Shown: positions 28,230 through 52,100 of the stretch, piece after piece
Layout of the letters: each line of letters starts with the position of its first letter
Position numbering within the stretch: position 1 is the first letter of the stretch
From: Geoalkalibacter subterraneus
GTDB lineage: Bacteria; Desulfobacterota; Desulfuromonadia; Desulfuromonadales; Geoalkalibacteraceae
DNA: 64,000 bases
Reading direction: 5' to 3'
Assembly (NCBI RefSeq): GCF_000827125.1
Contig: NZ_CP010311.1
Coordinates: forward strand, 930,001-994,000
Notes under the pieces: model-generated
Told to the model about the DNA's origin: nothing
The model's input: the letters and a program-made list of their open reading frames with translations, nothing else
The model's database searches: none
Made by a program: the position numbers and the translations under genes

Positions 28230-28523
28230 ATGGAAGATGAAAAAATCAGGGTGAGGACCGAAAACGACAGGATGCTTGACGTTCATGTGGATAACAAGCG
28301 GGCGGATGGCATCTGGATCATTCTTGGTGAGGGCGTCAACAGCCTGAAGTGCAAGTTGACCCCTACGGATAACGGGCTGGCGTATGCCGGCAGCATCATG
28401 GGACGAGAGATTATCTACGAGCGCAGCGTCAAGCAGGTGCGCGAGGATCTTGCGAACCAGAGACAGCCGCAGGACAGGCTGCCGAGTTGCCCAGGGGGAA
28501 GCCGCAACCGGGGGCGGCGATGA
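28230..28523 (+). CDS. Hypothetical 97-aa protein overlapping yaiI
   Basis: Unrecognised small protein. The first ~75 residues look like a compact beta-rich domain ([42 protein letters not shown]...GREIIYERS). The tail ([22 protein letters not shown]) is basic and low-complexity. Its stop overlaps the yaiI ATG as ATGA, which suggests translational coupling. The last third (from 28424) lies inside the long direct repeat, so a truncated copy of its 3' end recurs at 51542-51641. That copy has no start and is just passenger sequence of the duplication. Confidence 0.55.
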
Positions 28524-28978
28524 AGATCTGGATTGATGCCGACGCCTGTCCGCGCGTGATCAAGGAAATCGTTTTCCGGGCATCCAAGAGGGTGCAGGTT
28601 CCGGTGTGCCTGGTGGCCAACACCGACCTGTCAAGATCGCATACGGCGCTGATCTCATCTGTTCGAGTGGCTGGTGACGATGATGCCGCCGACGATTATA
28701 TCGTCGAACACGCAGCGGCCACCGATCTCGTGATCACAGCGGATATCCCCCTTGCAGCACGAATTGTCGCACAAAACGGGATTGCCATCGATCCGCGGGG
28801 GGAGATTTATTCAGAGGACAATATCGGCGAGCGCCTCTCCACACGCGATCTGCTGCATCAACTGCGTGAAACCGGGTTGGTCCAGGGTGGCCCGGGGCGT
28901 ATGGGCGCGACGGATCGTCAGAAGTTTGCATCCGCTTTCGACCGGCTTTTGACGCAGCGGATTATTTCCAAACGCTGA
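28520..28978 (+). CDS. yaiI: UPF0178/DUF188 (YaiI/YqxD) family protein, copy 1
   Basis: 152-aa protein of the widespread YaiI/YqxD family, a PIN-like (NYN-related) fold with no settled function. It begins [20 protein letters not shown], which holds the conserved acidic pair. Further conserved blocks are [35 protein letters not shown] and [19 protein letters not shown]. The start is the ATG at 28520, overlapping the upstream stop codon; the longer frame upstream lies inside the neighbour. A second, nearly identical gene occurs at 51638-52096. At protein level they differ only at one residue near the end (RIISKR here, RMISKR there). Confidence 0.93.
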
Positions 28979-28983
28979 AAAAG

Positions 28984-29026
28984 ACAGGCCGGATTTCCTC
29001 GAGGAAATCCGGCCTGTTTTTTTTTT
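28984..29026 (+). terminator. Terminator of yaiI copy 1
   Basis: A perfect 34-base palindrome (28984-29017, centre CTC/GAG) followed by nine T residues. A short A-run on its left means it could also work on the other strand. It is part of the long direct repeat. Confidence 0.93.
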
Positions 29027-29036
29027 ATATCAATGG

Positions 29037-29515
29037 GGCGGTCTCTGTTTAACAGATCTCCTAAGATGCCTAAAAGATTTAGGTATGTAGGAGGGCTTTC
29101 TGTGACGTACCCCCAATCGTACCCCAAATCTTAAATGCCGAAATGGAAAACCGATCACTTCATCTCACTCCTTGGAACCCCCCGGTTCACTTCCTTGGTT
29201 CAATTCAACCCCAAACGGTTGAACTTTGCAGCGAGCAACCGCCACAAAGCCGCTCAATACCTGCGTTTGTGACATGGTTCAATAATTGGTTCAATAGATT
29301 CAACGCCAGGTTTTCAACCAACAACAGCGGACAAATTTTAAATAGCTGGTATGCTTATTGAGTTGCTTTTTTTCTATATTCTTGAATTGATCAACCATCC
29401 CGGCGGGGGCCTCATGACTTTTCTGATAGATCCCATCTCGTAGTCCATTGTCGACTTAAAACAGTTGTAGTTAAAAGCCAGTCTTCTGCACCAGGTACGA
29501 ATGAAGTGATGCCGA
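29037..29515. other. Island left edge: no gene; tRNA-end remnant and tandem 12-mers resembling integrase arm sites
   Basis: Right after the repeat, the sequence TGGGGCGGTC (29034-29043) resembles the tRNA-Leu 3' end on the right (TGGGGGCGGTC). At 29106-29129 lies a tandem pair, CGTACCCCCAAT and CGTACCCCAAAT. Such short direct repeats just inside an integrated element are typical of integrase arm-type binding sites. The rest is AT-richer, with repeated GGTTCAAT words (29197-29300), and I find no supported gene. Confidence 0.5.
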
Positions 29516-30277
29516 TCAGTAGCATGTTGATTTAAGCTTTAGCAATTCATCGTCCAGTCCGTACCGAACCACCTCGATGCGCTCGCATCGCTGTGAGACA
29601 AAATCACCGCTCATCACAGGAATTTGGAATGGAAAGAACGCCGGGTTGTTTTGGAGCATCCCCAATGTGCCCTTGGCATCCGGGTTGGCCTGTAAAGCAG
29701 ATTCAAAAATCAGAATGGCCGCGTTAGCATCGGTGATGTTTATGGATGTGGCTTTTTCATAACACCCCTTGGATTCGGAATCTTTCAGAACTCCCCATGC
29801 AACAAAGGACCGTATCACATAACGTGTATAGCGGCTAACGGTCTGCCGATCGCCATATTGCTCTTTTAAACGGCCGGTGATCTGTATCTGGGTCACCTGG
29901 TCTTGAAGTGCCAGCAAGCGACCAGTCTGTCTGGCGACATTCAACCAGAACGGATAGACGGCCGAAACCATCCCCCAATGAACCGGCAGACTCATGGACG
30001 GATTATCACGAAGAATCGCCAGTGAAGCATCCCGAAAAGGAAGCAGTTCTGAATCAGGAGAGACCCAGATCTTCATCAGATTGTTGACGACAAAGGTCCG
30101 GGTCTGATCACTTCGTTCGCCTTCGGAGCCGTTGCCTTTTCGATCCGCGAGGAACTCATGCAGCTCCTGGCGGATGGTTTTGGCGTCGAGTCCCGCCAGC
30201 AGCAGATTGGCTGCTTTCTGCATCCACTCGAAACGAATCGCCTGCTTGATGCCAATGGCTTCGTGTCTTTTGCCCAT
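29516..30277 (-). CDS. brxA: BREX protein BrxA
   Basis: 253-aa protein of the BrxA (DUF1819) family, a small DNA-binding helical protein found in most BREX phage-defence types. Family features are the GIKQAIRFEWMQKAANLLLAG region, the central segment around PVHWGMVSAVYPFWLNVARQTGRLL and the winged-helix-like RLKEQYGDRQTVSRYTRYVIRSFVAWGVLKD. It is the last gene of the operon. The ATG overlaps the pglZ stop as TGATG, with AGGAGG eight bases upstream. No repeat insertion is seen in it. BrxA is needed for defence in several systems, but its exact role is not settled. Confidence 0.82.
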   Translation of the reverse strand: MGKRHEAIGIKQAIRFEWMQKAANLLLAGLDAKTIRQELHEFLADRKGNGSEGERSDQTRTFVVNNLMKIWVSPDSELLPFRDASLAILRDNPSMSLPVHWGMVSAVYPFWLNVARQTGRLLALQDQVTQIQITGRLKEQYGDRQTVSRYTRYVIRSFVAWGVLKDSESKGCYEKATSINITDANAAILIFESALQANPDAKGTLGMLQNNPAFFPFQIPVMSGDFVSQRCERIEVVRYGLDDELLKLKSTCY

Positions 30278-32376
30278 CACCGTGTCCTCCTTTCAAACTT
30301 CACAAGGGGCACGATGACTTCTTCGATGGCTACACCGCCGTGACCTACGATGGCATCTCCCGGGTTCACGAATGCGTCGCGGCCACCGGCCACCAGGGGA
30401 AAATAATCTGCGGGCAATCCGACCGGCTGCCACTCGTGGGCAAACGGGAAGGCCCCAGCCACCTGAGCTCGGAGTTCCGGCGTGGGATAGACACGAACAC
30501 GCTCGCCGCGAGTTTCGGCAATCACACCTTCAGACGGTCGGCCTTTGCCTTCGCATTGGATGTTGCCGTGATCGGCCGTCAGCCAGACCTCATAGCCGTA
30601 ATCCAGCAGTTGGCCGACCATCGCGGAAAGAAATCCTGCATGGCACCACTGCTTGATCTGGTTGTGCATCCCGGCCGAACCGAGTTGCATGCCGTGCATG
30701 ATTTTGTCCACTTTATCCACGACCAGCCCCACCACCTTGGTCTTCCCGGGGTGGATTGCGGAGTCGAGGACGCCCGCAGCATCGCCGTCGCCAAGGCCGC
30801 GCTGGTAGGCGACATCGAGCCGGGACAGGCCATGGCCTTCCCAGAACTGTTTCCAGAGTTTCTCTTCGCTGTTGGTCGAGTTGATGGATGACGGGAAATA
30901 GAGCGGCGGCTTGCCCGAGAAGATCGATTGCCGCGATACCGAGGTCAGCGTCGGAACCCAGGCGAAGGTCGCGGATTCGCGCATGACCAGATTGGCATCC
31001 TGTTTTTGCAGAAGCTGGCGGATGGTCACCCACTGATCCAGGGCCAGACCATCAACCACGATCAACGCGGCACGGCTATTGCCGGAGTCCTCGATATCCC
31101 GGGCCAGGCGGCGCGGCACATGGTGCAGCATGGCCGGATTCGTCGGCGGCAAGTTGATCAAGCTGGAATAGTGGTCGGCCAACCAACCCAAAAAAAGATT
31201 GTTGATTTTCGATTGCAGATTTTTGAATTGAAGGAGGTTGTCACTCGCCCCTCGTCCCTCACCCCTCGCGACTGAACTTGACAGTTCGGCCCATTTCAAT
31301 GCAAAGGCGGTCCAGTCCGAGTAACGCGCTTCCGCAGTGGGCAGTTCCTTCTCGACAAGGCCAAACAAGCGAGAGATCCGTAGCTCGTCATCGTCCACGC
31401 CGGACGTGGCGATGCCGCTTCGAACCCAGGACCCGGCATCCACTTCAATGCCTTTGGCCTCGACAGGGGTGAGTTTCCCCTCCAGGAACAGGTTGTCGAT
31501 GTAGACCTTGATGTCCTGATGGTCGAACGGCAGGCGATCAGGGCCGGGATACTTGAGGCCGTATTGATGCTCGCCATCCATGGCTCGCACCGCAAGGGCA
31601 TCGCTACGCGATGTCCCAATGGGCTGTCCTGCCCATTGGTCCGGCGAATCCTCCCGTACCTGATGAGCGCTGCCGAGCCTGGAAAGAAATAGCGGCCAGC
31701 GTTCCTGCAAAAAGGCGAAGAACGCCTCATCGTCCGGAACGATTTCAGAGAGCGGCCAGGCTTTGAAATCAGGGGTGAGGGACGAGGGGCGAGGGGCGAT
31801 TTGGAGCGATTGAATCAGGCGGTCTGCCAAAATTTGAGGCAGTTTAATTTTCCCATAGTGCAGGCGCAGCAATGCGCGAAGCAGCTCCACCTCGCCCCCA
31901 ATTAGTTCCGCCGCAATGCCGAACACATGACGGAGAATGAAATCCTTGGTGGCGTTGTCGCCCATGCGATCCGGCGGCGACTTTCGCTGGGCCTCAAAAA
32001 GCGAATCCAGCAAGCTCCGGTCGAGCTTTTCAATGACCGGGTAGCTCAGATTGGGAAAGAGATCCCCCAGGTTGAACGACAGCTTCCGGCCCGCCTGGAG
32101 CAGGTCGTATGGCAGCGACTCCAGCTCAGCATCCTGCAAGCGGAGGACCACCACCAGATCGGTGTGCTCACCCCTGTCCCAGATCGAACGGTACTTGGAT
32201 TCATAGGCGTATCTGAATTCGACCGGATCACTAAACTCGATCAGGTCAAACCCGCGCCCGCGAAGCTCCAATGCCAGCTTCTCCTCGGTCAGCAGACAAT
32301 CCGGGTCCGCGACCAGGGTCAGCTTGCTGACGTTGGGCACAAAGTCGTTCAGGATGGCGTCTCGCCAACTACTCAT
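30277..32376 (-). CDS. pglZ: BREX protein PglZ (alkaline-phosphatase superfamily)
   Basis: 699-aa PglZ, the core protein shared by all BREX types, a metal-dependent phosphatase/nuclease-like fold. The catalytic-site segments are AALIVVDGLALDQWVTIRQLL (conserved Asp after a hydrophobic strand) and LTADHGNIQCEGKG. The N-terminal ~150 residues (LVADPDCLLTEEKLALELRGRGFDLIEF) form the lead-in domain. The ATG at 32376 overlaps the upstream stop by 4 bp. Two short inserts, VARGEGRGASD and IAPRPSSLTPD, are encoded by the purine-rich dispersed repeat and break otherwise ordinary protein sequence while keeping the frame. PglZ works with BrxC and the methyltransferase in an anti-phage complex. Confidence 0.93.
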   Translation of the reverse strand: MSSWRDAILNDFVPNVSKLTLVADPDCLLTEEKLALELRGRGFDLIEFSDPVEFRYAYESKYRSIWDRGEHTDLVVVLRLQDAELESLPYDLLQAGRKLSFNLGDLFPNLSYPVIEKLDRSLLDSLFEAQRKSPPDRMGDNATKDFILRHVFGIAAELIGGEVELLRALLRLHYGKIKLPQILADRLIQSLQIAPRPSSLTPDFKAWPLSEIVPDDEAFFAFLQERWPLFLSRLGSAHQVREDSPDQWAGQPIGTSRSDALAVRAMDGEHQYGLKYPGPDRLPFDHQDIKVYIDNLFLEGKLTPVEAKGIEVDAGSWVRSGIATSGVDDDELRISRLFGLVEKELPTAEARYSDWTAFALKWAELSSSVARGEGRGASDNLLQFKNLQSKINNLFLGWLADHYSSLINLPPTNPAMLHHVPRRLARDIEDSGNSRAALIVVDGLALDQWVTIRQLLQKQDANLVMRESATFAWVPTLTSVSRQSIFSGKPPLYFPSSINSTNSEEKLWKQFWEGHGLSRLDVAYQRGLGDGDAAGVLDSAIHPGKTKVVGLVVDKVDKIMHGMQLGSAGMHNQIKQWCHAGFLSAMVGQLLDYGYEVWLTADHGNIQCEGKGRPSEGVIAETRGERVRVYPTPELRAQVAGAFPFAHEWQPVGLPADYFPLVAGGRDAFVNPGDAIVGHGGVAIEEVIVPLVKFERRTR
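31243..31270. repeat. Dispersed purine-rich repeat inside pglZ (site 1)
   Basis: CTCGCCCCTCGTCCCTCACC-type sequence on the plus strand, about 28 bp. It adds VARGEGRGASD to PglZ without breaking the frame. Confidence 0.85.
31771..31799. repeat. Dispersed purine-rich repeat inside pglZ (site 2)
   Basis: AGGGGTGAGGGACGAGGGGC and a further GAGGGGCGA, in the opposite orientation to site 1. It encodes IAPRPSSLTPD in PglZ, in frame. Confidence 0.85.
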
Positions 32377-35270
32377 TGAGCGCCTCCCTTGATAATCCGC
32401 AGCATCAGCAGCGGCCGGATTTCCGGTACGATCTGCCTTGCTGATTGCAGTTCGTGCCGCCACTCGGATTCGTCCGCATCGCAACGGGACAACCTGAATT
32501 GCCGTACCTCCGGCAATCCAACCCGTTCGATGGCCTTGCGGCGCGAGGCAAAGGAGACGATTCCGCGTTCCTCCTCGCGAGCCACAGAGGCGAGATGCGC
32601 CTGCTGTAATGCGTCGAACAGCTCCTGTCCGGCCTGTTCGGCAGCAAACTGCAAGCTCTCATGGGCGGTAATGGATTCATCCTGGCCGAGGGTGGTCTGC
32701 ACTTGGGCTTCCGCTGTCTGCAGCGCATCCCAGATATGCCGGGCCGTGGGCAGAAACAGTTTGCCTTCCTCGCTCAGGAACACACTGACATATCCCCGCC
32801 GCACCATGGGAATGCGCAGGAGTTGTGTCTTCTGGTGCATCCCGGCCTGAAGGCGGATCTCAAAGAGTCCCCAGAGTCCGGAGATGCTGGCTGGCAACCC
32901 GCTCACGCTTACGCATGGCAATGGCTGGCCAGCCGCGATCTGCGGCAGGTTCAGGGCAAGCCCACGGACACGACTGTTTTCAAGGTTGAGCAAGGTTGCG
33001 TCGGTCAGGCGATCCGCTTCCCGGGCGTTGAACACGGCCTTGCGATGTTCCTGGCCGTCCGGCCAATTCAGATCCCACCAGGAGCGCTTGCGGCTGGCCG
33101 CGCCGCCGTGAGAGTTGAGATAGCCGACCGTCATCCGTTCCACCCAGTGAGGCAGCGGATGGGAACGCAGACGCTCAGCCGCCTGCACATCCGGCTCTTC
33201 GGAGATGCCATAGATGGCGGAGGCCTCGCGCACCTGCTGAATTTCATCGCGAAGCCGGGCCACCGTGTGATCGACGGAGGTTTCGATCCCGTCAGGATTG
33301 ATGATGGCCGAGGCGAACACATCCTCGAACAGCTCACCGGCCTGGGCGGAATCGAGTACGTCGCCGGTCTTGTCGATGCCGAACTCGTCGAAGATCACCG
33401 AGAGCTTCTGCTCCAGCACTTCGCGGACCCGGAACTCGACTGAATCCTCAAATACGAAATTGATCGCCTGTACGGTTTTGGGCTGGCCGATACGGTCCAC
33501 GCGACCGATACGCTGCTCCAGCCGCATCGGGTTCCAAGGGATGTCGTAGTTGATGATGACGTGGGCGAACTGCAGGTTCAGACCCTCACCACCCGCATCG
33601 GTGGAGACCAATACGCGGTGCGATTTGCGGAAGGCATCCTGGGCTGCCCCACGTTCCTCCATGGCCATGGAGCCGTTCAGGGTGACCACCGAGATTCCCC
33701 GGGCTTCCAGAAACTCCTTCAGCATCTGCTGGGTCGGCACGAACTCGGTGAAGATCAGCACCTTCAGATCCGGTTCGTTTTCCTCGGCTTGCAGCTTGTA
33801 GATCCACTCGATCAGAGCCTCGGCCTTGGCATCCGGTCCAGCCTGTTCACAACGGACCGCCGCGTCGAGCAAAACTTCAACCTCGGATTTTTCGTTTCGC
33901 AAGGCTTCAAGCTGTAACGCTAGTTCAAGCTGTTCCTGTCCATCAAGATCTTCCCAATCCTCGGTTGAAAGGGACGAGTGGTCAGGGGCGAGGGACGAGT
34001 CAAAATCTGACAGTCTCGCCCCTAATCCCTCGCCACTCGCCCCTAAAAAAGCGAGTCGCCGTTCCAGCGTGGTGCGGATCGCCCGGGTGCTGGAGACCAC
34101 CAGGCGCTGCATCAGGATCATCAGGAAGCCGATGTGGCGCTTCTTCTCGCGCAGGGCCTGGTTGTAGCCCTCGCGCACATAGTCGGTCACTGCCTCGTAG
34201 AGGAGTTGCTGCAGGTGATGACGGCTCTCCCAGGCCACCGGGGCCATCTGCGTGCGCCGGGGTTTGAAGAGCGGCTTGCCGTCGGCATCGATGGCCTTGC
34301 GCTTCTCGGTACGAATGACATACGGTGCCACCCGCTCACGGGAAACACTGTCCATATCCGGAAAGGCGTCATCATCCAGCAGGTTCATCAGGCGATGAAA
34401 GGCATCGGTCTTCCCCTGGTGGGGAGTCGCCGAAAGGAGCAGCACATAGGGCGCAGCCTCCGCCAGCCCCTTGCCGAGCTTGTAGCGGGCGACCTGATCG
34501 GTGCTGCCGCCCAGGCGGTGCGCTTCGTCCACCACCACCAGATCCCAACCAGCGGTGATCAGATCTTCGAACCGGCTGCGGTTGTATTCGGCAACGCGCT
34601 CAGCAGTCCAGCCACGCCGCTTGTCCATGGGCTTGACCGAATCCAGGGAAACGATGACCTGATCGAACATCGACCAGGCTGATTTCCGCTGGTCCGCACC
34701 TGTAGCCAGGCGCTGCAAGGTGCCGATGTCGTCGCCCAGCACGAGCTGGAACTGCTCGTTGAAGTGGGTCTGCATTTCGGCCACCCACTGGGTAGCGATG
34801 CCTTTGGGAGAGACGACCAGGATTCGCCGAACCAGCCCGCGCAGCTTGAGCTCGCGCATGACCAGCCCGGCCTCGATGGTCTTGCCTAGACCCACCTCGT
34901 CGGCCAGCAGATAGCGCACGCGGTCGCCGGAGATGGCCCGGGACAAGGCGTGGATCTGGTGCGGCAGCGGGATGACGTTGGACTCCATGGGAGCCAGCAA
35001 TACATGGCCGTCCGTGGCGCTGGTGGAGCCTTCGAGCACCTCGGCCACCTTGGCTGCAGCCGCCACATAGGCAATGCGTCCAGCCTCGATCTCCGGCTGC
35101 AGGTCGGCATTCAGCGGTCGCAAAGCGGAGCGGGACACACGCACCACCGCGTCCTGGTTCGGCAACCAGACACGGCAAACCGTCTGCCCCCACAAGGTCT
35201 GTTCTTCGATGACCTTGCAGGCGCTGTTATGAACGGTGCTGTATTGCCAAACATCCTGCATCGGCATCAT
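32373..35270 (-). CDS. brxHII: BREX type 3 helicase BrxHII (SNF2/RapA-like)
   Basis: 965-aa superfamily 2 translocase. Walker A DEVGLGKT is at residues 124-131 and the DEAH box (VVVDEAHRLGG) at 248-251. Motif III is LLLSATPHQGKTD, and the C-terminal RecA domain has VLVSTDAGGEGLNLQFAHVIINYD and the arginine-finger motif RIGRVDRIGQ. The layout matches the BrxHII helicase that replaces BrxL in type 3 BREX. The start ATG overlaps the preceding stop as ATGA. A two-part purine-rich repeat insertion near residue 410 encodes GASGEGLGARL...SSLAPDHSSLSTED, placed between the two RecA lobes, probably in a surface loop. It presumably remodels DNA during phage exclusion. Confidence 0.9.
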   Translation of the reverse strand: MMPMQDVWQYSTVHNSACKVIEEQTLWGQTVCRVWLPNQDAVVRVSRSALRPLNADLQPEIEAGRIAYVAAAAKVAEVLEGSTSATDGHVLLAPMESNVIPLPHQIHALSRAISGDRVRYLLADEVGLGKTIEAGLVMRELKLRGLVRRILVVSPKGIATQWVAEMQTHFNEQFQLVLGDDIGTLQRLATGADQRKSAWSMFDQVIVSLDSVKPMDKRRGWTAERVAEYNRSRFEDLITAGWDLVVVDEAHRLGGSTDQVARYKLGKGLAEAAPYVLLLSATPHQGKTDAFHRLMNLLDDDAFPDMDSVSRERVAPYVIRTEKRKAIDADGKPLFKPRRTQMAPVAWESRHHLQQLLYEAVTDYVREGYNQALREKKRHIGFLMILMQRLVVSSTRAIRTTLERRLAFLGASGEGLGARLSDFDSSLAPDHSSLSTEDWEDLDGQEQLELALQLEALRNEKSEVEVLLDAAVRCEQAGPDAKAEALIEWIYKLQAEENEPDLKVLIFTEFVPTQQMLKEFLEARGISVVTLNGSMAMEERGAAQDAFRKSHRVLVSTDAGGEGLNLQFAHVIINYDIPWNPMRLEQRIGRVDRIGQPKTVQAINFVFEDSVEFRVREVLEQKLSVIFDEFGIDKTGDVLDSAQAGELFEDVFASAIINPDGIETSVDHTVARLRDEIQQVREASAIYGISEEPDVQAAERLRSHPLPHWVERMTVGYLNSHGGAASRKRSWWDLNWPDGQEHRKAVFNAREADRLTDATLLNLENSRVRGLALNLPQIAAGQPLPCVSVSGLPASISGLWGLFEIRLQAGMHQKTQLLRIPMVRRGYVSVFLSEEGKLFLPTARHIWDALQTAEAQVQTTLGQDESITAHESLQFAAEQAGQELFDALQQAHLASVAREEERGIVSFASRRKAIERVGLPEVRQFRLSRCDADESEWRHELQSARQIVPEIRPLLMLRIIKGGAQ
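33971..34050. repeat. Dispersed purine-rich repeat inside brxHII (inverted pair)
   Basis: GTCAGGGGCGAGGGACGAGT on the left and TCTCGCCCCTAATCCCTCGC on the right, separated by about 13 bases. Two units face each other and could form a hairpin. The whole insert keeps the brxHII frame. Confidence 0.85.
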
Positions 35271-36316
35271 CCCGGAATTGAAAAATCGTTGTGATAAACC
35301 ACGGACGCCAACTCGACTGTCCCGTCGGCGCACTCCCAGTAATGAAGATGGAATTCCCTATCGATATCTCGACGTTGCGCCTTATCAGAGCCACGCATTC
35401 TTTGCGGGTCATTTCCGCCTGGCCCTGTCCGAAGAGCGTGTACGGCGGGAAGATTGTGTCCTTTGATAGTCTCAATGATTGATCGGAGAATCTTGGGCGG
35501 CACGGAGTCCCCTTGGTCGGCGCAAACCTGCTGGCACAACTCCCGGAATCTGGACCCAATGGCTGGAACAACCACGCCGCTCCAGTCAGGGGAATCACCT
35601 TGCGCAATCGCATTTTTGAACAGAGCGATTCGGACGGCGAGATCAATTCCAAGGTCGTCAGACGCGCCAACCAGAATGGCGGATTCATCGAGACAATCGA
35701 TCAGCCCTCGAAAATCGTCACAGACCAACACATCGCCTTCAAAGAACTCGGGCGGGCATGGCAAGACAGGGATATCGTCTCTGGAATGTTCGAGCTCGTG
35801 AATATGGGCTCTTACCTGAATTACCTGTTTGGGCGCTTCTCTTAGTATGAGCGAATGGCCACCAAGAGGTTGGGAGCAGTGCTTGCGTAGGACGGCGATC
35901 AACGTGATGCATCGGGCAAGATCGGACTGGAGGCCGTCATGAGTTGTCAGCCGAATAACATCCGGATCTGTTTCCAGATGTTCTGACAAGACATCTTTGA
36001 CCCGATAGTAGGTTTCAAAGGATGGAGTGATCGCCAGAAGCTGGTTGGCAATTCTCGCAACCGTATTGACGTCGTATTCTACTATGCCGTGGGCATTAAA
36101 CAGTTCTCTGAGTTGATCCCTCAGTGGATACAATCCATCGGCAAAAAGGGACTCTGAAGCCCGCTCGCTCATGTAAATGGCTACCCAGGGCTCATCAAGC
36201 AACTTGCTCCAGTCCAGTAGCGTGTCCACGTATTGGAAAGCATCATCCTTGGCGCAATCAACATGGGGCACAGCGAGCACGCCTGCGTCAATTGTTACGC
36301 TGGGCAGGCTATGCAT
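35267..36316 (-). CDS. Unrecognised 349-aa protein embedded in the BREX operon, partner of the AAA ATPase
   Basis: I do not recognise the family. The N-terminus (VTIDAGVLAVPHVDCAKDDAF) has an Asp after a strand, as PIN-like nucleases do, but the rest of a PIN site is not clear. The middle carries CPPEFFEGDVLVCDDFRGLI and ASDDLGIDLAVRIALF. The last ~55 residues look the most conserved and active-site-like: HALRTGPGGNDPQRMRGSD, then RRDIDREFHLHYWECADG and ASVVYHNDFSIPG, rich in His, Arg and Asp. It overlaps the upstream ATPase gene by 8 bp and the downstream brxHII by 4 bp, so it is tightly coupled. Its pairing with a DUF3696 ATPase recalls two-gene ATPase-effector defence modules. Effector function is inference. 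Confidence 0.7.
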   Translation of the reverse strand: MHSLPSVTIDAGVLAVPHVDCAKDDAFQYVDTLLDWSKLLDEPWVAIYMSERASESLFADGLYPLRDQLRELFNAHGIVEYDVNTVARIANQLLAITPSFETYYRVKDVLSEHLETDPDVIRLTTHDGLQSDLARCITLIAVLRKHCSQPLGGHSLILREAPKQVIQVRAHIHELEHSRDDIPVLPCPPEFFEGDVLVCDDFRGLIDCLDESAILVGASDDLGIDLAVRIALFKNAIAQGDSPDWSGVVVPAIGSRFRELCQQVCADQGDSVPPKILRSIIETIKGHNLPAVHALRTGPGGNDPQRMRGSDKAQRRDIDREFHLHYWECADGTVELASVVYHNDFSIPG

Positions 36317-38231
36317 CTTTATTCCTCCGGCTTGCTTTGCGCTTCATCGCCGCAGCTCTAAGGATTTCCTCGGCCTGCTGTTGGGACTGATCAAAGAACC
36401 CTTCCGGCCAGTCTGAGATGGCTCCGTACTCGTTTATCACCACCTCTCGGAAAGCTGAACCCTGTGACGGCTTTTCCACGAAGTAAATCTTGGTCTGACT
36501 GTTCAGCTCCTTCTCGGGTGTTGCCGCTGCAATTCGGAAGCGAAGGCGGTCGATGAAATACTCGCTGTGGGTTTCAACAATGCATTGCTTATTGCACAGC
36601 GCCATCGAAAGGAAAAAGTCGCCGAGCAGGGTCTGTACCTTCGGATGAAGGTGCAACTCCGGCTGTTCAAAAACGAGTGTAGAGTCCGTGTCGGCGAGAA
36701 GGCACATGACGAGGATCGGCAGGACCTGGCTGACGCCTACACCCACATGCGTGAGGTCATGCGTGCTATCCGAATTGGAAAGCCCCACCTTCAGCTCGTG
36801 CCCCAATTTGCCCTGGTCTCGGCTTTTGACTGAGCTGGCGACTCCCAGATATTGGAGCCAATCGATAACCGCCGCTTCGAGTGTCCGGGTAACTGTTTTG
36901 CGGTCAATTACCGGGTCTTTGAAATTTGCCGACGGGATGTAGCGGATCTTCTTGCTCTTGTGCAGTTCAAGAATGGAAGCTGTGTGTTCTCCGCGTAAGC
37001 CTACGTCATGTGGGTCCGCTGCTGGCGCGAGCGGATACAGCGGTTTTGGAGCATCCCTTAATGGGCCGAGGTATTTCAAAGACGAGGCGAAGAAATTATC
37101 CAGATACCAGGTAGCTTCCGTTATCAAGCGAGGTGGCCTGGCTTGGACAAAGGCATGGGTCTCGGGCTTCTCTGCCGTTGATACCTTCATGGCTTGGTGG
37201 ATGCGGTCAAAAAGATCCTCGCGCTCACGCAGGACCTGCTGAACCTTCAGGTGCTCGTCGCGTGGGAGGCTGCGTAACCTTTCATACCAAGACCTGAATG
37301 AAAGTGTATCGGCCTCGGAACCGAATAGTGATTCTTGCCGATACTTGTCCTTAAAAGTCTGATCAAATTCGATTGTGCCTTCGAGGACTTCGCGCAACAC
37401 CGCAATGATCTCTTCAGAAAGAAGAATTTCCCTTCCCATGGTGCGCCGTACGCCAATGGCACGACGGCCATCATCCTGAAGAGCCATGACGATGGCGTTT
37501 GCGTCCTCTTCGATGGTATCGATAGCGTAAACAATTCTCTCGGGAAGGAAGTGTCGAAGCATGCAGCCGATTGGCTTGGCCGAGCGAAAGTCATCCTTCA
37601 CCTCAGCCATGGAATCATCGTCCAGTTCAACAGCGTAAGCCAAACTGGCGCGTAGCTGATCGTCAAGTTCACTGGCGGTGTCAGCACCTTCAATTTCGGA
37701 GATGGCCTTAGTGGAATGATGGATCGATATATCGGCTTTCTGATCCACGTTGTCCTCGTCTCTAGATATGCAGGACAACTGCGTGGCAAAAAGCCGAGGT
37801 TGGATTTGGAACAAATCACGCTGGGAGCTTGAAGCATCAGCATCAAAGGAAATCTCACAAGCGATTTCCTGAAGCTGATTGGAGCGCGGTCCATAGTAAA
37901 CAGCACCACGGGGTGCGAACTGAGACCGCCTGCCTATTGCAGCATCCTGATCCGGAAGTGGCCGACAGGTACATTTGATGGTGATCTGATCCGAGGCACC
38001 ACCGTTGGATTTTAGGTCGTCAAACTGGCCCAAGCTCGTGAGAGCACCATTCAATACGACAGATCTTGATCCCACTTTATGGGCCAAAGTCTGTGCTACG
38101 AGAAGGACGGATTGGATGAATGTGCTCTTCCCGCTGCTGTTTGCGCCAGCGAAGATCGTAAGTGGGCCGAGGTCCAGCTCGGTCTCCTCACGAATCGATT
38201 TAAAGTTGAAGACCTTCCATTTGGTGATCAT
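36309..38231 (-). CDS. DUF3696 AAA ATPase (OLD/RecF-like) embedded in the BREX operon
   Basis: 640-aa ABC-type/AAA15 ATPase. Walker A GANSSGKST is at residues 29-37, after the usual FNFKSIREETELDLGPLTIFAG start. The distal half has the signature-like HVGVGVSQVLPILV, Walker B/H-loop region STLVFEQPELHLHPKVQ and THSEYFIDRLRFRI. The end carries the DUF3696 motif EYGAISDWPEGFFDQ. There is no TOPRIM nuclease domain, unlike OLD or GajA, so catalysis on nucleic acid would need a partner; the 349-aa gene overlapping its end is the obvious one. Its composition is more AT-rich than brxC or brxHII. It lies 3 bp downstream of pglXI. I see it as an extra defence pair carried inside BREX rather than a core component. 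Confidence 0.85.
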   Translation of the reverse strand: MITKWKVFNFKSIREETELDLGPLTIFAGANSSGKSTFIQSVLLVAQTLAHKVGSRSVVLNGALTSLGQFDDLKSNGGASDQITIKCTCRPLPDQDAAIGRRSQFAPRGAVYYGPRSNQLQEIACEISFDADASSSQRDLFQIQPRLFATQLSCISRDEDNVDQKADISIHHSTKAISEIEGADTASELDDQLRASLAYAVELDDDSMAEVKDDFRSAKPIGCMLRHFLPERIVYAIDTIEEDANAIVMALQDDGRRAIGVRRTMGREILLSEEIIAVLREVLEGTIEFDQTFKDKYRQESLFGSEADTLSFRSWYERLRSLPRDEHLKVQQVLREREDLFDRIHQAMKVSTAEKPETHAFVQARPPRLITEATWYLDNFFASSLKYLGPLRDAPKPLYPLAPAADPHDVGLRGEHTASILELHKSKKIRYIPSANFKDPVIDRKTVTRTLEAAVIDWLQYLGVASSVKSRDQGKLGHELKVGLSNSDSTHDLTHVGVGVSQVLPILVMCLLADTDSTLVFEQPELHLHPKVQTLLGDFFLSMALCNKQCIVETHSEYFIDRLRFRIAAATPEKELNSQTKIYFVEKPSQGSAFREVVINEYGAISDWPEGFFDQSQQQAEEILRAAAMKRKASRRNKDA

Positions 38232-38234: not shown

Positions 38235-41090
38235 CTATTCCCCTCCCATCCGTGTTACTGCCTGGTCGTACCACATGAGCAGTTTGGGATCTTCTTCCAG
38301 GACGTTGTTGGGGATCTTGTCGGCCACGGCGACGATGACGGAGTAATCACGCTCTTGCCAGGCTTTCTTGAATCCGGCGCGGACAGCTTCCAGGCGGAAG
38401 ACCTTGAGCTTCTTCTTGACCTCTTTGTATTCCTCGAATTCCTTGAGCAGTGCCTTCTCGCGCAGCTTCTCCAGGTCGCCCGCCTTGTTGGGATCGGGCA
38501 CGTACCAGCGGTCGCGGGCTTTGGTCACCAGCGCCGGGTCATCCTTGGGTAGGTTGCGCAGTTCCTTCCAGTTGGTGGAGAGGTAGGCGTGGATCTGCTC
38601 GGGCACAGGGCCTTTACCGTCGTAACGTAGAAAGTTTTGCTCAAGCAGAGTTGAAAGCTCTAGGGATGATTCGTTTTTATTCCAGGCGCGTTGGGTTTCC
38701 TGAATGAATTGATGATAGAGATCTTGATAACTTTGTGGTTTTTCCCTAAGCAATGCCCTTAACCATTGAATAGAACTTGCTTCATCAGAAACGAAGAGCG
38801 AGGCCTGTACAATTCGGCCGATAGACATTTTCTTTCTGTCGTGCTCTGCAGATTGCTCTGGCAAAAAATACATGCCGTCACGCTCGATGAAACGCTGCGC
38901 TAATCCAATTTGAAATTCGTTACTAGATATTGGAACGGGATAACCTTTTCGTACAAAATAGGCGATCATTTGGTCGAACAAGATTCTTGGGTCTCTTTCT
39001 GGTATGAATTGAAGAGCGTTCCCCTGAACCTTTACTGTCGGCAAGTAGCTAAGATGGGTTCGTACGAAATCCCATACTCCTTCCTCTGTCTGCACTTCAT
39101 GTTCGAACCTCTGCTCGAACCCCCCGTTTGGCTTGTATGCTGAAATAACCAGGTCTTGTTTTACTGCTGTTGGACTGGTAACCGACTGAAAACTTCGTTG
39201 TTTTTTATCAAGTGCGGCCACGTTACCAATTACAAACCCAACCTCCTGCAGGGTGGTCTGAATGGTGTTCCAAACGGACGCCTGGGAGTTTGAAAACTCC
39301 ACAGTTATCCAGCGCCCTGGCTTCAGCACCCGATAATATTCTAAAAAGCAGTCTCGCATTAAACTCTGATAGTCAGTGAGAGCTTTCTGCCTGACTTTAT
39401 CAACAATCGCTTCAGGTTTTGTGTTTGTAAATACGCGATACCAAGATTCAACAAAGAAGTTGAGGTCAGAGTAATAGATATTTTCGCCGAATGGTGGATC
39501 TGTGAAGATGTAGTCTTGGCTGTTTGGCGGCAATATGGATGCACTAGTAGAAGCTGTTTGAACTGGGTTGTAGTTATTGCTTCGGAAATTTGATAGCGCA
39601 GCGACGATTCTTTTCAACTTATTGGAATATGCCGGAAATACAGATGGTTCGCTGACCATAGACGGGACATAAAAAACCCCAGTAAGAGGATTGTATGGGA
39701 ACGAAACTTCAGGCCGGTAACGATTGCGGATAGAAAGATTGACCAGATGGCTGTCGAGCCAGAACTGCAGAAGTGACTTAACGTTGGAGCGTTGTAGCGA
39801 ATTTACCTTTCGCCAAAACAATCCAAGAACATAAGCAGGTCTTGAAAGGAAGAAGTGGTGAGTGTGTGTAACGCCAGATCCTTGCATCCTGCCAACACGC
39901 ATCATCTGCATGTCTGGGATTTCTGTGGAAGGAACCTCTTCAGGTAAAGGGAGATCCTCTATTTTTCTGGATAGCTCAATATCGTTAGAATCTGGTAGCT
40001 TTTCGTATCTTTTCTTTCCGACGGAATAATTGACGAGAACTGGCACTCGCTTAGGCCTCTTGACTATTTGCTGAAGCCTAACATCGAATATGCTCTCGTA
40101 AACAATATCAAGCCGTCCCTTTTTCAGTTCAGAGCTACAATGAGGGCATGAAAAATTTTCGCGAACCTTCTTGGTGTCCTTGTCATGAGCAACATCATAG
40201 AAGACGAATTCATGCCCGCATTCACTACATAGATTTACTTCACTCCACACAACATAGTTGATAACACCTGTGCTCTTTCCATCGGTATGAGTTGTTTTGT
40301 ACATCCACTCGCATTCATTTTCGACCTCTGCCAATATCCTATTGGCTTCTTTTTGAAAACGCTGGATATCAATATTTGTATTGTAGTTTGAGGCAATAAA
40401 TGTAGCGGCTGGTGATAAGTCGTTCAAGATTGCATGGCGCACACCGATTCTTGAAAAAGGCTTCCAAACATTCTTTCCATTTTCATCAATTTCTTCCCTT
40501 AGGATTTGTCCGTCGGATTTGACCTGATAACCGAGAGACATGACCACTTCGCGGTCACCACACATTTGTGCGGCCACTCCTGTCATTCCAGTTCCGGCAA
40601 AACCATCGAACACTATATCCCCCGGTTGAGTGTAATGCAGGAGATAACGCATGATGGCTTTGTAAGGAACTTTAGTATGATAAGAATGTGCATTGTATAT
40701 CGGATCTTGCTTCCCTTCGCTCACATCCGCTGCAAATGGCTCACGATGATAGTGTTTGTCTTTCGGTTGCTCAGGCTTCTGAGCCTCCCATTCTGCGATA
40801 AAGTCGGCGATCCACGGGTTCGGGCAGGCGGTGTAATACGGCGGATCGCTCAGGTTTAGGATGTCCTCATCGCTGCCGATGGGAAAGCCTTCGATCTTGC
40901 GGAACTCCGGGTCCTGCAGCTTTTTGCGCAGCTCCTCGGTAAAGTGGGCGCGGCGGGCCTCATCGTTCTCGAACGTCATGCCGAGACAAGTCTCCGGGGC
41001 GACGTTGGCAACCCAATCCTCTTCAAACAGCTTCCCTGAGCCCTCTTTGGCCGGAACGTATTTCGACTTGAACATGCTTTCCTGCTTCAT
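38235..41090 (-). CDS. pglXI: BREX type 3 adenine-specific DNA methyltransferase PglXI
   Basis: 951-aa DNA methyltransferase, the self-marking enzyme of BREX. The catalytic motif SDPPYYTACPNPW (DPPY at 82-85) precedes the SAM-binding motif FDGFAGTGMTG (about 161-171), the permuted beta-class order. A zinc-ribbon pair (CSECGHEFVFYD...CPHCSSEL, about 270-310) follows. A second catalytic-like motif FTDPPFGENIYYSD is in mid-protein. The base composition is mosaic: the ends (about 40,780-41,090 and 38,235-38,640) are GC-rich like the neighbours, while the centre is clearly AT-richer, as if the target-recognition part had been exchanged. The start (MKQESMFKSKY) lies directly against the upstream stop codon. 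Confidence 0.88.
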   Translation of the reverse strand: MKQESMFKSKYVPAKEGSGKLFEEDWVANVAPETCLGMTFENDEARRAHFTEELRKKLQDPEFRKIEGFPIGSDEDILNLSDPPYYTACPNPWIADFIAEWEAQKPEQPKDKHYHREPFAADVSEGKQDPIYNAHSYHTKVPYKAIMRYLLHYTQPGDIVFDGFAGTGMTGVAAQMCGDREVVMSLGYQVKSDGQILREEIDENGKNVWKPFSRIGVRHAILNDLSPAATFIASNYNTNIDIQRFQKEANRILAEVENECEWMYKTTHTDGKSTGVINYVVWSEVNLCSECGHEFVFYDVAHDKDTKKVRENFSCPHCSSELKKGRLDIVYESIFDVRLQQIVKRPKRVPVLVNYSVGKKRYEKLPDSNDIELSRKIEDLPLPEEVPSTEIPDMQMMRVGRMQGSGVTHTHHFFLSRPAYVLGLFWRKVNSLQRSNVKSLLQFWLDSHLVNLSIRNRYRPEVSFPYNPLTGVFYVPSMVSEPSVFPAYSNKLKRIVAALSNFRSNNYNPVQTASTSASILPPNSQDYIFTDPPFGENIYYSDLNFFVESWYRVFTNTKPEAIVDKVRQKALTDYQSLMRDCFLEYYRVLKPGRWITVEFSNSQASVWNTIQTTLQEVGFVIGNVAALDKKQRSFQSVTSPTAVKQDLVISAYKPNGGFEQRFEHEVQTEEGVWDFVRTHLSYLPTVKVQGNALQFIPERDPRILFDQMIAYFVRKGYPVPISSNEFQIGLAQRFIERDGMYFLPEQSAEHDRKKMSIGRIVQASLFVSDEASSIQWLRALLREKPQSYQDLYHQFIQETQRAWNKNESSLELSTLLEQNFLRYDGKGPVPEQIHAYLSTNWKELRNLPKDDPALVTKARDRWYVPDPNKAGDLEKLREKALLKEFEEYKEVKKKLKVFRLEAVRAGFKKAWQERDYSVIVAVADKIPNNVLEEDPKLLMWYDQAVTRMGGE

Positions 41091-42868
41091 TAGGTTTTCT
41101 CCAAAAGGTCTCGACCTTTGTCTGTCGTTCGATATTGCTGCATTCGACTGCGCGGTTTATCCGGAATCGTACGGACAAGTAGCTCTTCTTCGAGAAGGTA
41201 ATCCAAGTAGTTTCGCTGAAAGGTTTCTCGGTGCTTGATGCCGACAACCTCTTGGATCTCTGCGCTTTTTTTGGGATCAATGCATGCATTTAACACATCA
41301 ACCACCCAACTCTCAACTTGTCCGGCGACTTGTCCGGCGACTTGTCCGGCGACTTGTCCGGTTGGCTCCCGGCGCTGTTGATCTCTGCCTGTACGATCCA
41401 GTTGCATTCGAATTGGCTCAGCCAATGCGTAAGACTCATCATCCAACGCAGTCAGCAATTGCTGCTGGCTCAAGTAGGCTAGAGCCTGGTGGGCTGTCCT
41501 CAGGTTCCCCCCTGTCACCGTACCGGCATCAATCACGGAAACTTGATGCTTCTCTGCCGCCAATGCCAGTACGTCAGCTTGATCCGGAGAAAGGGTAACG
41601 CCGAGGTTGGCCTGAAATCGCTTCATGGTTTCGGTGATCAGTGGCTCTTGGCTCAGAATCAGTTCAAAGGATTTGCCTGCCTTATCGTTATGAATCTGGG
41701 GAGGCCTGCGACCTAACTCATGCCAATTGCGAAAGATCGCACGAATGCCTGTGCCGGCCTGGTCACTGAGCCCAATACGGCGAAATGCATTGACAATCAG
41801 TGGATTGCGGATCTCTTTTTCGTTGGATTCGAGTAGCTGAGCAGGGGTGGCGAAAGCATCCCCCGGGTTCCAGAACTGGATTCGGTCGGTAAACCACTTC
41901 AGTGACGCTTTTCGGTTATGGTCGCCATAGTCCTGGTGGATGAGCAGGTTGATCGCTGCTTCGCGAAAGGCAATGTAGTCAGGCGGGTCATCCGACCTGC
42001 GCATCGTGGCCGGGTCAACTTTAAAGGGATGCTCGGCAATACGCGAATATTTGGCGACCAGACCTCGCCAGGCTTTAAACAGGTTTTCTTCAAAAACCAT
42101 CCGATCATGCCAGCGTTCGTCTGCTGACCACTGCTCAAAACGGGTATCGATCCGCTGGTAGTCGAGAACTGGACGTGGCAAGAGACTGCGAACAGAGCGA
42201 TCTTGACCAAATAGCAAGACAGCTGCACGGGTCAGAATCGGCTGGCCGTTTTTGTGAACAATAAAATTCCACTCCTGCAAAAACTCTATCGGGTCATCTA
42301 TCTGGCGTTGCTCTGGATTTCGCCGAAAAAACTGAGCTTGGTACCATCCAAGAGTTTCGGCGTCGATATTGTTATCAACATCAAGTCCAGGCAGACCTTC
42401 ACCGTCCCAGGCGTTTTGTGCCGCATCACGGAAATAGCGTTGTAATTCAGCGTTGGTCATCCGTTCATCACGGGCGGCTCGGCGGATGTAGCTGTCGCGG
42501 GGGTTCCCGTTCAGGTAAATCGGTTTTTGGTGCCGATCGCTTTCCGGGATAAAAAAAGCCAGGATGCGCTTATCATCAATTTCGTGAACGTGGGGCTCTG
42601 CATAAAGGATCTGATTGAATTTCTGCCCACTTCTCAAGGTTGTCAAAAAGGCACTATGGACCTGATCAAAGGCGTCTCGATCAACACCGCTAATCTTGAG
42701 CCCACCTTTTTCTTCCGATACACCGAACAACAACCATCCGCCAGCAGTATTGGCGAAAGCACACACTGTTGAGTAGGCATCTTTAGGAACATCCCGGCGC
42801 GCTTTTTTGCACTCGAAGTCGGTCCATTCATAACCCTTGAGGCGGGCAATTAACTCGTCTCTCGTCAT
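41090..42868 (-). CDS. AlbA_2/Schlafen-type putative transcriptional regulator with GHKL-like domain, inside BREX
   Basis: 592-aa protein. The N-terminal AlbA_2 (Schlafen-like, 'divergent AAA-4') domain has WTDFECKKARRDVPKDAYSTVCAFANTAGGWLLFGV. A GHKL-type ATP-binding module follows (IAFREAAINLLIHQDYGDHNRKAS ... IRNPLIVNAFRRIGLSDQAGTGIRAIF), then a C-terminal winged-helix region (YLLEEELLVRTIPDKPRSRMQQYR). Between them lies a tandem insert, GQVAGQVAGQVAGQVE, made by four 12-bp units at 41316-41363. The ATG at 42868 has GGAG at proper spacing; a GTG at 42874 overlaps the brxC stop and is an alternative. Such proteins often act as regulators near restriction and BREX genes. It is not a core BREX component. 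Confidence 0.85.
   Translation of the reverse strand: MTRDELIARLKGYEWTDFECKKARRDVPKDAYSTVCAFANTAGGWLLFGVSEEKGGLKISGVDRDAFDQVHSAFLTTLRSGQKFNQILYAEPHVHEIDDKRILAFFIPESDRHQKPIYLNGNPRDSYIRRAARDERMTNAELQRYFRDAAQNAWDGEGLPGLDVDNNIDAETLGWYQAQFFRRNPEQRQIDDPIEFLQEWNFIVHKNGQPILTRAAVLLFGQDRSVRSLLPRPVLDYQRIDTRFEQWSADERWHDRMVFEENLFKAWRGLVAKYSRIAEHPFKVDPATMRRSDDPPDYIAFREAAINLLIHQDYGDHNRKASLKWFTDRIQFWNPGDAFATPAQLLESNEKEIRNPLIVNAFRRIGLSDQAGTGIRAIFRNWHELGRRPPQIHNDKAGKSFELILSQEPLITETMKRFQANLGVTLSPDQADVLALAAEKHQVSVIDAGTVTGGNLRTAHQALAYLSQQQLLTALDDESYALAEPIRMQLDRTGRDQQRREPTGQVAGQVAGQVAGQVESWVVDVLNACIDPKKSAEIQEVVGIKHRETFQRNYLDYLLEEELLVRTIPDKPRSRMQQYRTTDKGRDLLEKT
41316..41363. repeat. Four tandem 12-bp units in the AlbA_2 gene
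   Basis: ACTTGTCCGGCG repeated four times on the plus strand, the last unit ending in TT. Each unit encodes GQVA. Gain or loss of units would keep the frame but change linker length. Confidence 0.95.
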
Positions 42869-42870
42869 GG

Positions 42871-47122
<4,252 letters not shown>

Positions 47123-47126
<4 letters not shown>

Positions 47127-47659
47127 ATCTCGCCCCTCGCCCCTAAATCCTCGCCCCTCGCCCCTAAATCCTCGCCCCTCGCCCCTAAATCCTCGCCCCT
47201 TATTTCAACAATCAGCGCATCGACCGAGTCATAGCTGCGGTACTCGGGATGGCCGGTTTCGGCGTACAAAAGCCTCCCGGAGGACATGGTCCCGTTCCAC
47301 GAAGCCACCACGGCCCGATTTCTCGAAATGGACTGCAGCAGGCGCAAGGGGTCCTGCTGGAGATCCTTGTCGAAAAGGATCTCGAGATTATCCAGCACCA
47401 CGGGTGCTTGAGCCTGGTCCGCGATCTGATCGAGGATGCCCGGTAGCCGAAGCGACCGCTGCTTTGCCGTCAGCTCAAGCAGTTCGCCTGAAAGCGCCAG
47501 ATTGACGTTGACGACGGACGAGCCGAATTCCTCGGCAATATCCCGAAGAACGCCGGTCTTGCCGGAACCGGTCTCACCCACCAGCAGTACCAGGCGGTGA
47601 TATAAGCCTTCGGCTGCCTGGAGGGATCGTTTTATCTTGTCGTGAATCGGCTCGGCCAT
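47123..47659 (-). CDS. brxF: BREX type 3 P-loop protein BrxF
   Basis: 178-aa small ATPase specific to type 3 BREX; its presence defines the type here. Walker A GETGSGKT is at residues 28-35 (LVLLVGETGSGKTGVLRDI). A Walker B-like APVVLDNLEILFDKDLQQDP and an arginine-containing SISRNRAVVASWNGTMSSGRLLYAETGHPEY follow. The natural domain seems to end near DALIVEI. The last ~25 residues are three heptads, RGEDLGA each, encoded by tandem 21-bp units of the dispersed repeat. This tail replaces or extends the normal C-terminus. It lies 9 bp downstream of the HTH gene and overlaps the next gene by 4 bp. Confidence 0.92.
47129..47200. repeat. Tandem 21-bp units of the dispersed repeat at the 3' end of brxF
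   Basis: CGCCCCTCGCCCCTAAATCC plus T, three consecutive identical 21-bp units (47131-47193) and a partial fourth. This is the only site where the repeat forms a regular tandem array. A change in copy number would keep the frame and only lengthen or shorten the BrxF tail. Confidence 0.95.
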
Positions 47660-50332: not shown

Positions 50333-51109
50333 TCAAAAATATGTGTTTTTCTCTACTATGGGCTGATTTTGGGCTGGAAAATCCTCGCCATAGCCCTCTT
50401 CAGATTCACGCAAAACACAACAATCTCCGTTCGCGATGATGGCGCGGCTTTTTCCTCGTACACCAAGCAGACGTTGGGTTTTCAGGACAAACTCTTCACT
50501 TCCGACCGCAAGGCTTCTGGTCCAAGCCTCATCGCGCTGCAGGGCATTAGTGCGCAACGCTTCGCCCACCCAAGATCCATGATAATCGGCCAGCGCTTGC
50601 AGAGTGCTCAGACCGGCAGCGTCAACCAGCGCATCAAGATCAAGGAGCCGATTACGCCGCCGCTGACCCTGAATTTCACGGTAACCGCCATGAACCCACT
50701 CTTGCGGATGACTGACGACACCAGCGCGGACCATGTTCAGATCGATGTACACCAGGCAGCGCAGTAAATGCTCACCGGATTCTATGGCGGTGGCATGATA
50801 CCGATCTTCCCAGAAAGCGCCTTTGCGTTGCTTGCGCTGGTTATATTCCTGTCCTGTGCGGCCGGCGATCAGTTGCATGGCTGAAGGGATGCTGCCGGCG
50901 GAGCCATGGTCTTTGACCAGAAGGTGCACATGATTGCTGGTCACCGTGAAGTTGAGAAGTTTCATTCCAAAGCGTTTGCGGGCTTCGCCGAGCCAGAAAA
51001 CAAAGCGGCTGCGGTCGCGGGCGAATTTAAGAAGGAATTCCTTTTTGTGACAACGATGGGTGATATGCCAGATGCAGCCTGGGATGTAATGCCGATTGGC
51101 TCTTGCCAT
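50333..51109 (-). CDS. REP-associated tyrosine transposase (RAYT, Y1/HUH family)
   Basis: 258-aa single-strand transposase of the TnpA_REP/RAYT group. The HUH pair is in TVTSNHVHLLVKDHG, and the catalytic Tyr is expected in the helix GRTGQEYNQRKQRKGAFWEDRYHATAIE. The start MARANRHYIPGCIWHITHRCHKKEFLL and the segment CLVYIDLNMVRAGVVSHPQEW are standard for the group. A C-terminal DnaA-like helix-turn-helix region follows. It is flanked by inverted REP-like sequences: GGGTCGGACCAA at 50290-50301 beyond its 3' end, and TTGGTCCGACCC repeated beyond its 5' end. It appears intact. RAYTs move REP sequences and are usually single-copy, so the local duplications here are notable. Confidence 0.92.
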   Translation of the reverse strand: MARANRHYIPGCIWHITHRCHKKEFLLKFARDRSRFVFWLGEARKRFGMKLLNFTVTSNHVHLLVKDHGSAGSIPSAMQLIAGRTGQEYNQRKQRKGAFWEDRYHATAIESGEHLLRCLVYIDLNMVRAGVVSHPQEWVHGGYREIQGQRRRNRLLDLDALVDAAGLSTLQALADYHGSWVGEALRTNALQRDEAWTRSLAVGSEEFVLKTQRLLGVRGKSRAIIANGDCCVLRESEEGYGEDFPAQNQPIVEKNTYF

Positions 51110-51535
51110 GGGTTCCCCTCCCCGAAGGATTTCATGTCAATACAGCTAAAGAGTTCCATTTTGCCCTCAAAAATCGAGCTATAGTGGGATTTTTGGAGGT
51201 GTTAATTTGATTTTTCGACATTATTCCAGAGAGTTATCTTGGTCCGACCCCATGGGAACCCATGATTTTTCGACATTATTCCAGAGAGTTATCTTGGTCC
51301 GACCCCATGGGAACCCATGTTTTGTGACAACGATGGGTGATATGCCAGATGCAGCCTGGGATGTAATGCCGATTGGCTCTTGCCATGGGTTCCCCTCCCC
51401 GAAGGATTTCATGTCAATACAGCTAAAGAGTTCCATTTTGCCCTCAAAAATCGAGCTATAGTGGGATTTTTGGAGGTGTTAATTTGATTTTTCGACATTA
51501 TTCCAGAGAGTTATCTTGGTCCGACCCCATGGGAA
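51043..51535. repeat. Duplicated RAYT 5' end and REP-like units
   Basis: A 216-bp segment (51043-51258) is repeated exactly at 51320-51535. It contains the first ~22 codons of the RAYT gene, its upstream region and one REP-like unit with TTATCTTGGTCCGACCCCAT. The region between adds a second 55-bp tandem unit (51209-51263, then 51264-51318). The second RAYT 5' copy has no gene body behind it. Confidence 0.95.
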
Positions 51536-52096: not shown

Positions 52097-52100
52097 AAAA

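Follow-up and report, generated by a model that had tools for sequence, protein, structure and literature searches.

Very probably, the backbone of a type 3 BREX defence operon in Geoalkalibacter subterraneus has spread across phyla and the core of its methyltransferase gene pglXI has been swapped by homologous recombination, giving codons 97 to about 822 of the present allele. The operon lies on the minus strand of a 64,000-nt stretch of the genome, referred to as the window. The base composition of pglXI is mosaic, its synonymous divergence from relatives changes in steps, 24 different cores occur on one backbone, one relative is chimeric, and the cargo genes beside pglXI are shuffled independently.

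All six genes of the operon were detected with PADLOC in the order expected for type 3 BREX (brxF, brxC, pglXI, brxHII, pglZ, brxA), together with two cargo insertions. The backbone comprises brxF (47123..47659, minus strand, as are all genes and features of the operon given below; PADLOC BrxF), brxC (42871..46734; BrxC, 2104.9 bits; approximately 82-93% nt identity across phyla), brxHII (32373..35333; BrxHI/BrxHII family, 1630.8 bits; mostly 82-94% nt identity, close relatives) and pglZ (30277..32484; PglZ, 1088.7 bits), the true start of which is probably located downstream of the first TTG in its ORF. The brxA gene was found at 29516..30280 (BrxA, 391 bits). The pglXI gene (38235..41090) codes for the PglX of type 3 BREX, a protein of 951 amino acids matching PADLOC PglXI with 1456.9 bits over residues 16-950.

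Sliding GC content in pglXI was 0.55-0.59 at both ends and 0.40-0.48 between them. The GC-rich ends and the AT-richer middle, which had been described in a first-pass annotation of this DNA, were thereby confirmed, as they were by cuts in GC content at third codon positions (GC3). The best GC3 cuts fell at codons 96 and 828, about positions 40,802 and 38,607 of the window, and separated values of 0.79, 0.43 and 0.80. The log-likelihood gain was 47, compared to a maximum of 11.6 in 200 codon shuffles of the gene and to gains of 6-16 in other genes of the operon (brxC, brxHII, pglZ, Schlafen and ATPase); the profile is stepped and not smooth. The corresponding junctions, at 40,802/40,803 and at about 38,606-38,625 of the window, are within approximately 35 bases of the boundaries placed earlier at 40,780, where the change had been called abrupt, and at 38,640. 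They delimit a conserved left arm (codons 31-96; 40803..41000; GC3 0.83), a replaced block (codons 97 to about 822; 38625..40802; GC3 0.43) and a conserved right arm (codons about 823-951; 38235..38624; GC3 0.80). Identity to relatives at fourfold-degenerate sites is 0.73-0.80 in the left arm, mostly 0.2-0.45 and thus near chance in the replaced block, and 0.75-0.88 in the right arm. GC1 and GC2 were nearly flat along the gene (gains of 7 and 6, with cuts elsewhere). Because they barely move, the GC step is synonymous, and amino-acid bias was ruled out as its cause.

An AT-rich middle might instead be intrinsic to PglXI, for instance through codon choice for folding or through mRNA structure, and independent of ancestry. 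In accordance with this, every core in the backbone clade is lower in GC3 than its ends (group mean about 0.4-0.48). Several distant PglXI, however, are near-flat in GC3 (L025, L026, L027, L028, L048 and L059), with levels of 0.6-0.75 in L025, L026 and L028 and of 0.15-0.31 in L027, and an AT-rich core is therefore not a built-in property. Furthermore, codons 127-156 and 697-828 are GC-rich in most relatives (mean 0.66-0.80) and at 0.33-0.50 in the window, so that the boundary in the window is its own. An intrinsic cause was rejected as highly improbable on the basis of the flat GC3 in unrelated PglXI.

Relatives of PglXI were collected from GTDB genomes (41 loci). Their hosts include Lysobacter, Nitrosomonas, Clostridiales, Verrucomicrobia, Synergistaceae, Chlorobi, Spirochaetes and desulfobacterial organisms. 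Divergence along the gene was strongly unequal: across phyla, amino acid identity to the window is mostly 85-100% in residues 31-96 and 829-951 and mostly 20-45% in the recognition region. DNA identity is mostly 82-94% in brxC, brxHII, pglZ and the ends of pglXI (about 90% across several phyla), whereas the middle of pglXI is alignable over about half its length only, with about 68% identity. This argues that the backbone crossed phyla recently and that the middle did not accompany it.

Selection on the protein does not act on fourfold-degenerate sites, and these were compared between the window and 24 relatives. Identity at these sites was 0.80 in codons 33-64 and 0.73 in codons 65-96, and dropped to 0.26 in codons 97-126, where the amino acid sequence is still 85% identical; the drop was completed inside one 30-codon bin. 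On the right side, values of 0.28 (codons 817-828) and 0.75 (codons 829-859) were followed by 0.80, 0.88 and 0.83 to the end of the gene. Fisher tests of the step with single pairs gave p values from 8e-8 to 2e-19. The steps in synonymous divergence coincide with the GC3 change points, and the latter had been derived from the window alone. The collapse of fourfold identity at 85% protein identity points to replacement by distant homologous DNA, and judged from the sequences, the step would be explicable only in this way.

It was also considered that no exchange took place, and that the ends are kept by purifying selection while the core evolves fast by point mutation under diversifying selection. 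Such recognition domains are known to diverge fast, and the insert of PglXI is its most variable part (mostly 20-35% amino acid identity at residues 402-523). This reading fails to account for fourfold identity being near chance in codons 97-216 and 637-828 although the protein is 43-87% identical there, nor can selection on amino acids make this identity recover over roughly one bin where the arm begins again. It is also contradicted by a pair of relatives from different phyla, L020 (Desulfobulbus) and L014 (Lysobacter), in which the pglXI core is 97-100% identical in nucleotides and brxC just 91-95%. The synonymous step and the chimeric structure of L020 described below refute it, and we attach very little probability to it.

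The exchange proposed in the first-pass annotation is seen directly in relatives (L014, L020 and L021), not in the window. L020 and L014 share the core described above, and their slot-2 genes, located downstream of pglXI, are unrelated. L020 and L021 (Porticoccaceae) share 90-99% nucleotide identity in the pglXI tail and slot 2, and their cores align poorly. At informative sites, L020 sided with L014 in bins 3001-4800 (633 versus 2) and with L021 in bins 5401-9300 (about 1,200 versus about 45), and these counts were far above the permutation maxima. L020 is a clear chimera of a Lysobacter-like core and a Porticoccaceae-like downstream cassette.

A two-state segmentation based on the third-position match to the modal backbone revealed a replaced core in 27 of the 27 alleles compared (the window and 26 relatives). 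The replaced block of the window, codons 97-822, is among the longest, and the minimum common to all 27 cores comprises codons 221-632, approximately. Left ends were located near codons 77, 97-125, 157-178 and 200-221, and right ends near codons 632-666, 701 and 818-828. These breakpoints sit within conserved coding blocks, with no single shared site. At a threshold of 80% amino acid identity, 24 different core alleles were distinguished among the 27 sequences. Median pairwise identity was 0.97 for the tail and 0.43 for the core, with a correlation of 0.07. Different cores on similar backbones are found, for example, in the cultured hosts Lysobacter ruishenii (L014), Desulfobotulus alkaliphilus (L015) and Akkermansia glycaniphila (L010).

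The structure of PglXI was modelled with AlphaFold2 (mean pLDDT 78.6, pTM 0.55). In type 3 BREX methyltransferases, a recognition insert of about 250 residues has been described that separates strands 2 and 3 and bears a four-cysteine zinc finger (PMC12839542, 2026). The PglXI of the window shows the features of this PglXI/BrxXI group, i.e., motifs I and IV, an insert between strands 2 and 3, and a four-cysteine motif; the N6-adenine methyltransferase motifs are FDGFAGTG (residues 160-167) and TDPPF (residues 529-533). Based on the model, on variability and on PMC12839542, the target-recognition insert is predicted at residues 241-515, approximately (39546..40370); a methyltransferase strand (218-222) precedes it, and the strand of motif IV (524-529) follows. 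The pLDDT is mostly 84-97 over residues 241-390 and lower beyond; the most variable stretch of the predicted insert is residues 402-523. Instead of the several zinc ribbons suggested earlier for the middle of the protein, only one four-cysteine zinc-finger motif was found, within the insert (C287, C290, C314 and C317; 40140..40232), and these cysteines are invariant in 40 aligned PglXI. Searches of the PDB by sequence and by fold returned only generic methyltransferases with low TM-scores and were uninformative on the recognition insert.

The predicted insert falls inside the common minimum of codons 221-632, which contains in addition the motif IV half of the methyltransferase. The block replaced in the window reaches further on both sides, over the motif I half and into the C-terminal helical domains, and thus covers both halves of the methyltransferase fold. 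The earlier proposal had been that recombination swaps the specificity part of the gene and keeps its ends. Recombination with conserved ends is borne out by the synonymous steps and by the chimera, and neither of the outcomes named there as refuting, a smooth composition profile or equal divergence along the gene among relatives, was observed. The proposal is refined in two respects: in this allele the block exceeds the recognition region, and the exchange extends past pglXI to the slots on both sides. With a block of this extent, drivers other than selection for specificity are conceivable as well.

According to the mechanism proposed here, the backbone (brxF, brxC, the pglXI ends, brxHII and pglZ) would spread horizontally between phyla at about 90% DNA identity. 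BREX operons meeting in one cell would recombine, presumably by RecA-type homologous recombination, with the conserved blocks of pglXI serving as arms. The central methyltransferase and recognition core would be exchanged, and the reading frame and the operon-facing ends would be preserved. In the window, codons 97 to about 822 would have been imported from a distant, AT-richer PglXI. A new core would provide a new site for methylation and phage restriction and leave the remaining BREX machinery unchanged, and such a new site is most likely because the exchanged core holds the nested recognition insert. PglX sets the specificity in type 1 BREX (PMC11341690); this role and the position of the insert suggest that the swap changed the recognised and methylated site also in the window.

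The exchange event in the window was reconstructed against alleles of other species. A donor of its core was not found among the sequences searched, and the closest core was 51% identical (L004). There was no match in phages or in E. coli genomes, none was confirmed in IMG/VR viral contigs, and the same family yielded none. Plasmids gave no near-identical match and, by protein, only full-length relatives with 44-52% identity; among 395 genomes of the phylum, the best other match was 64-65%.

If the genome carried silent pglX cassettes or an invertase, a new core could also be introduced by programmed switching, and phase variation has been reported to be common in pglX genes (PMC11341690). The complete genome, however, contains one pglXI and elsewhere only a tail remnant of 42-43 codons, no long inverted repeats (60 nt or more) are present near the locus, and the breakpoints of the relatives are scattered over conserved coding blocks instead of one site. 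As both the silent copies and the inverted repeats of a phase-variable pglX are missing, switching of this kind is considered quite unlikely here. The contigs of L034, L035, L037 and L040 break off within pglXI, which is to be expected at the border of conserved ends and variable cores, and a chimeric assembly might be suspected also for the window. Its genome consists of two contigs with 99.99% completeness, the reading frame (ORF 38235-41090) is intact over both junctions, and numerous independent assemblies, some of them from isolates, show the same architecture; the probability of an assembly artefact is practically negligible.

Slot 1, between brxC and pglXI (41090..42874), contains a gene for a protein with Schlafen AlbA_2, HATPase_c_4 and Fic-like_C domains (Pfam). 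In relatives, this slot is empty or contains Schlafen/AlbA, 23S_rRNA_IVP, YhcG/PDC-S02, ParA-like or other genes. The start of PglXI (codons 1-30; 41001..41090) is variable, in step with the occupancy of slot 1 rather than with the backbone. The window and L019, both carrying a Schlafen gene, have MKQESMFKSK in common; MSDKYGQQQTMFETE is common to L006, L015 and L021, all with a 23S_rRNA_IVP gene in the slot, and MKE(T/N)SLFDSLLEEPQKP to most alleles with an empty slot 1.

Slot 2, between pglXI and brxHII (35267..38231; Pfam/PADLOC), contains an AAA_15/DUF3696 OLD-like ATPase (36309-38231) and its partner, a 349-aa protein (35267-36316). This pair was found in seven relatives (80-98% nucleotide identity) and the start of the ATPase in two more. 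The rest carry other modules, among them a HEC-03-like ATPase triad with an RNA ligase, IetA/IetS, an AIPR/AbiU-like gene, and a HATPase with a second gene. The sequence GGGAGGGG at the extreme 3' end of pglXI (38240..38247) likely serves as the ribosome-binding site of the slot-2 gene, as judged from its position: the next ATG in the window begins 3 nt past the pglXI stop codon, and GGGAGG ahead of the stop codon takes the ribosome-binding position for most first genes of slot 2. The same purine run is present in most relatives despite unrelated slot-2 genes.

On the second contig (242 kb) of the window's genome, an unrelated gene for an OLD-like ATPase is directly preceded by a scar of 128 nt from the pglXI tail (92% nucleotide identity; G000, about 181258-181385; L081 5259-5386), with no other BREX gene within 16 kb around it. 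Similar scars precede an Iet gene in L038 and a HATPase gene in L041. Slot-2 cargo thus appears to travel together with the pglXI tail.

The BrxXI/PglXI proteins of PMC12839542 belong to the same family as that of the window, with the same insert position and four-cysteine motif, and auxiliary Schlafen and OLD-like cargo in BREX loci is noted there as well. The insert is described as fast-diverging, and the term 'recombination' is absent from the main text; mosaic exchange with conserved arms is added here. Recognition domains are known to be exchanged in restriction-modification systems of type I (hsdS) and type III (mod), for example in Helicobacter pylori (PMC3983042, PMC3077401). Like pglXI, hsdS and mod have conserved ends around an exchangeable recognition region, and allelic homologous recombination diversifies specificity. 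The hsdS-type pattern of flanks with low synonymous divergence, a divergent centre and sharp junctions is present in pglXI; incongruent ancestry of centre and flanks was found in L014, L020 and L021, and for the window itself no donor was found. For hsdS and mod, the partners of exchange are strains of a single species and in part different sites of the same gene. In contrast, pglXI is exchanged between phyla as part of a BREX operon, and the catalytic fold is for the most part included in the exchanged unit.

In type 1 BREX, the divergence between the StySA and E. coli HS loci lies in pglX, and the recognition domain is C-terminal, whereas it is internal in the PglXI of the window; the available portions of PMC11341690 and PMC9009780 (StySA), to which this comparison refers, contained no mapping of pglX junctions. 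Accessory defence genes such as BrxU and PARIS occur between BREX core genes (PMC11341690, PMC12839542). The window differs from these loci in that two fixed slots flank pglXI, that the cargo changes without regard to core or backbone, and that the 3' end of pglXI accompanies slot-2 cargo as a scar. No mapping of intragenic exchange in PglXI, of its occurrence across phyla or of its connection with two cargo slots was found in the open-access papers searched. The exchange within PglXI appears to be undescribed there, and the type of process is known from type I and type III restriction-modification.

Type 3 BREX is, with somewhat better than even probability, a plug-in platform. Its near-invariant backbone would circulate across phyla with pglXI as a docking gene, in which the first 30 codons go with slot 1, the core is a specificity cartridge, and the last codons provide a homology arm and the ribosome-binding site for slot 2; the three modules would assort independently. 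By exchange of the core, a complex multi-gene defence system could alter its recognition without rebuilding its machinery, and such exchange has taken place repeatedly and across phyla. Natural sets of operons differing almost only in the core make the recognition code of PglXI testable by comparison of methylomes. Trees of whole pglXI genes and composition-based calls of horizontal transfer blend several histories.

Several further observations were made at related loci. In L038 (2843-3579), a different, AAA-like ORF supplies the N-terminus to which about 80 codons of the pglXI tail are fused in frame, and an IetA-like gene comes next; BREX was apparently lost here and slot-2 cargo retained with the pglXI scar. 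L041 (3346-5770) is an apparent relic of a BREX deletion, in which a fragment of brxF and one of brxA enclose the pglXI tail and, after it, a HATPase-like gene plus another cargo gene. L033 (10001-10642; L063) contains a pglXI head (residues 1-157, 85% amino acid identity) in an ORF ending after 233 codons near the contig end, which represents either a truncated gene or an unusual allele. Slot 2 of L003, L007, L010, L012 and L039 contains genes for a HEC-03B-like ATPase, a HEC-03A-like 176-aa protein and a 229-aa protein of the RNA ligase family, and this recurrent trio is a candidate three-gene defence module.

A direct repeat of about 620 nt (28424-29043 and 51542-52164; 97.4% identical), with a YaiI-like gene inside, brackets the BREX island of the window. 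Copies of the YaiI-like repeat in relatives of the same family are diverged (67-74% identical), and BREX is absent there; the second copy may mark the route by which the island entered. At 51043-51538, an exact direct repeat of 219 nt with a spacing of 277 nt adjoins a transposase ORF of the REP-associated type (50333-51109).
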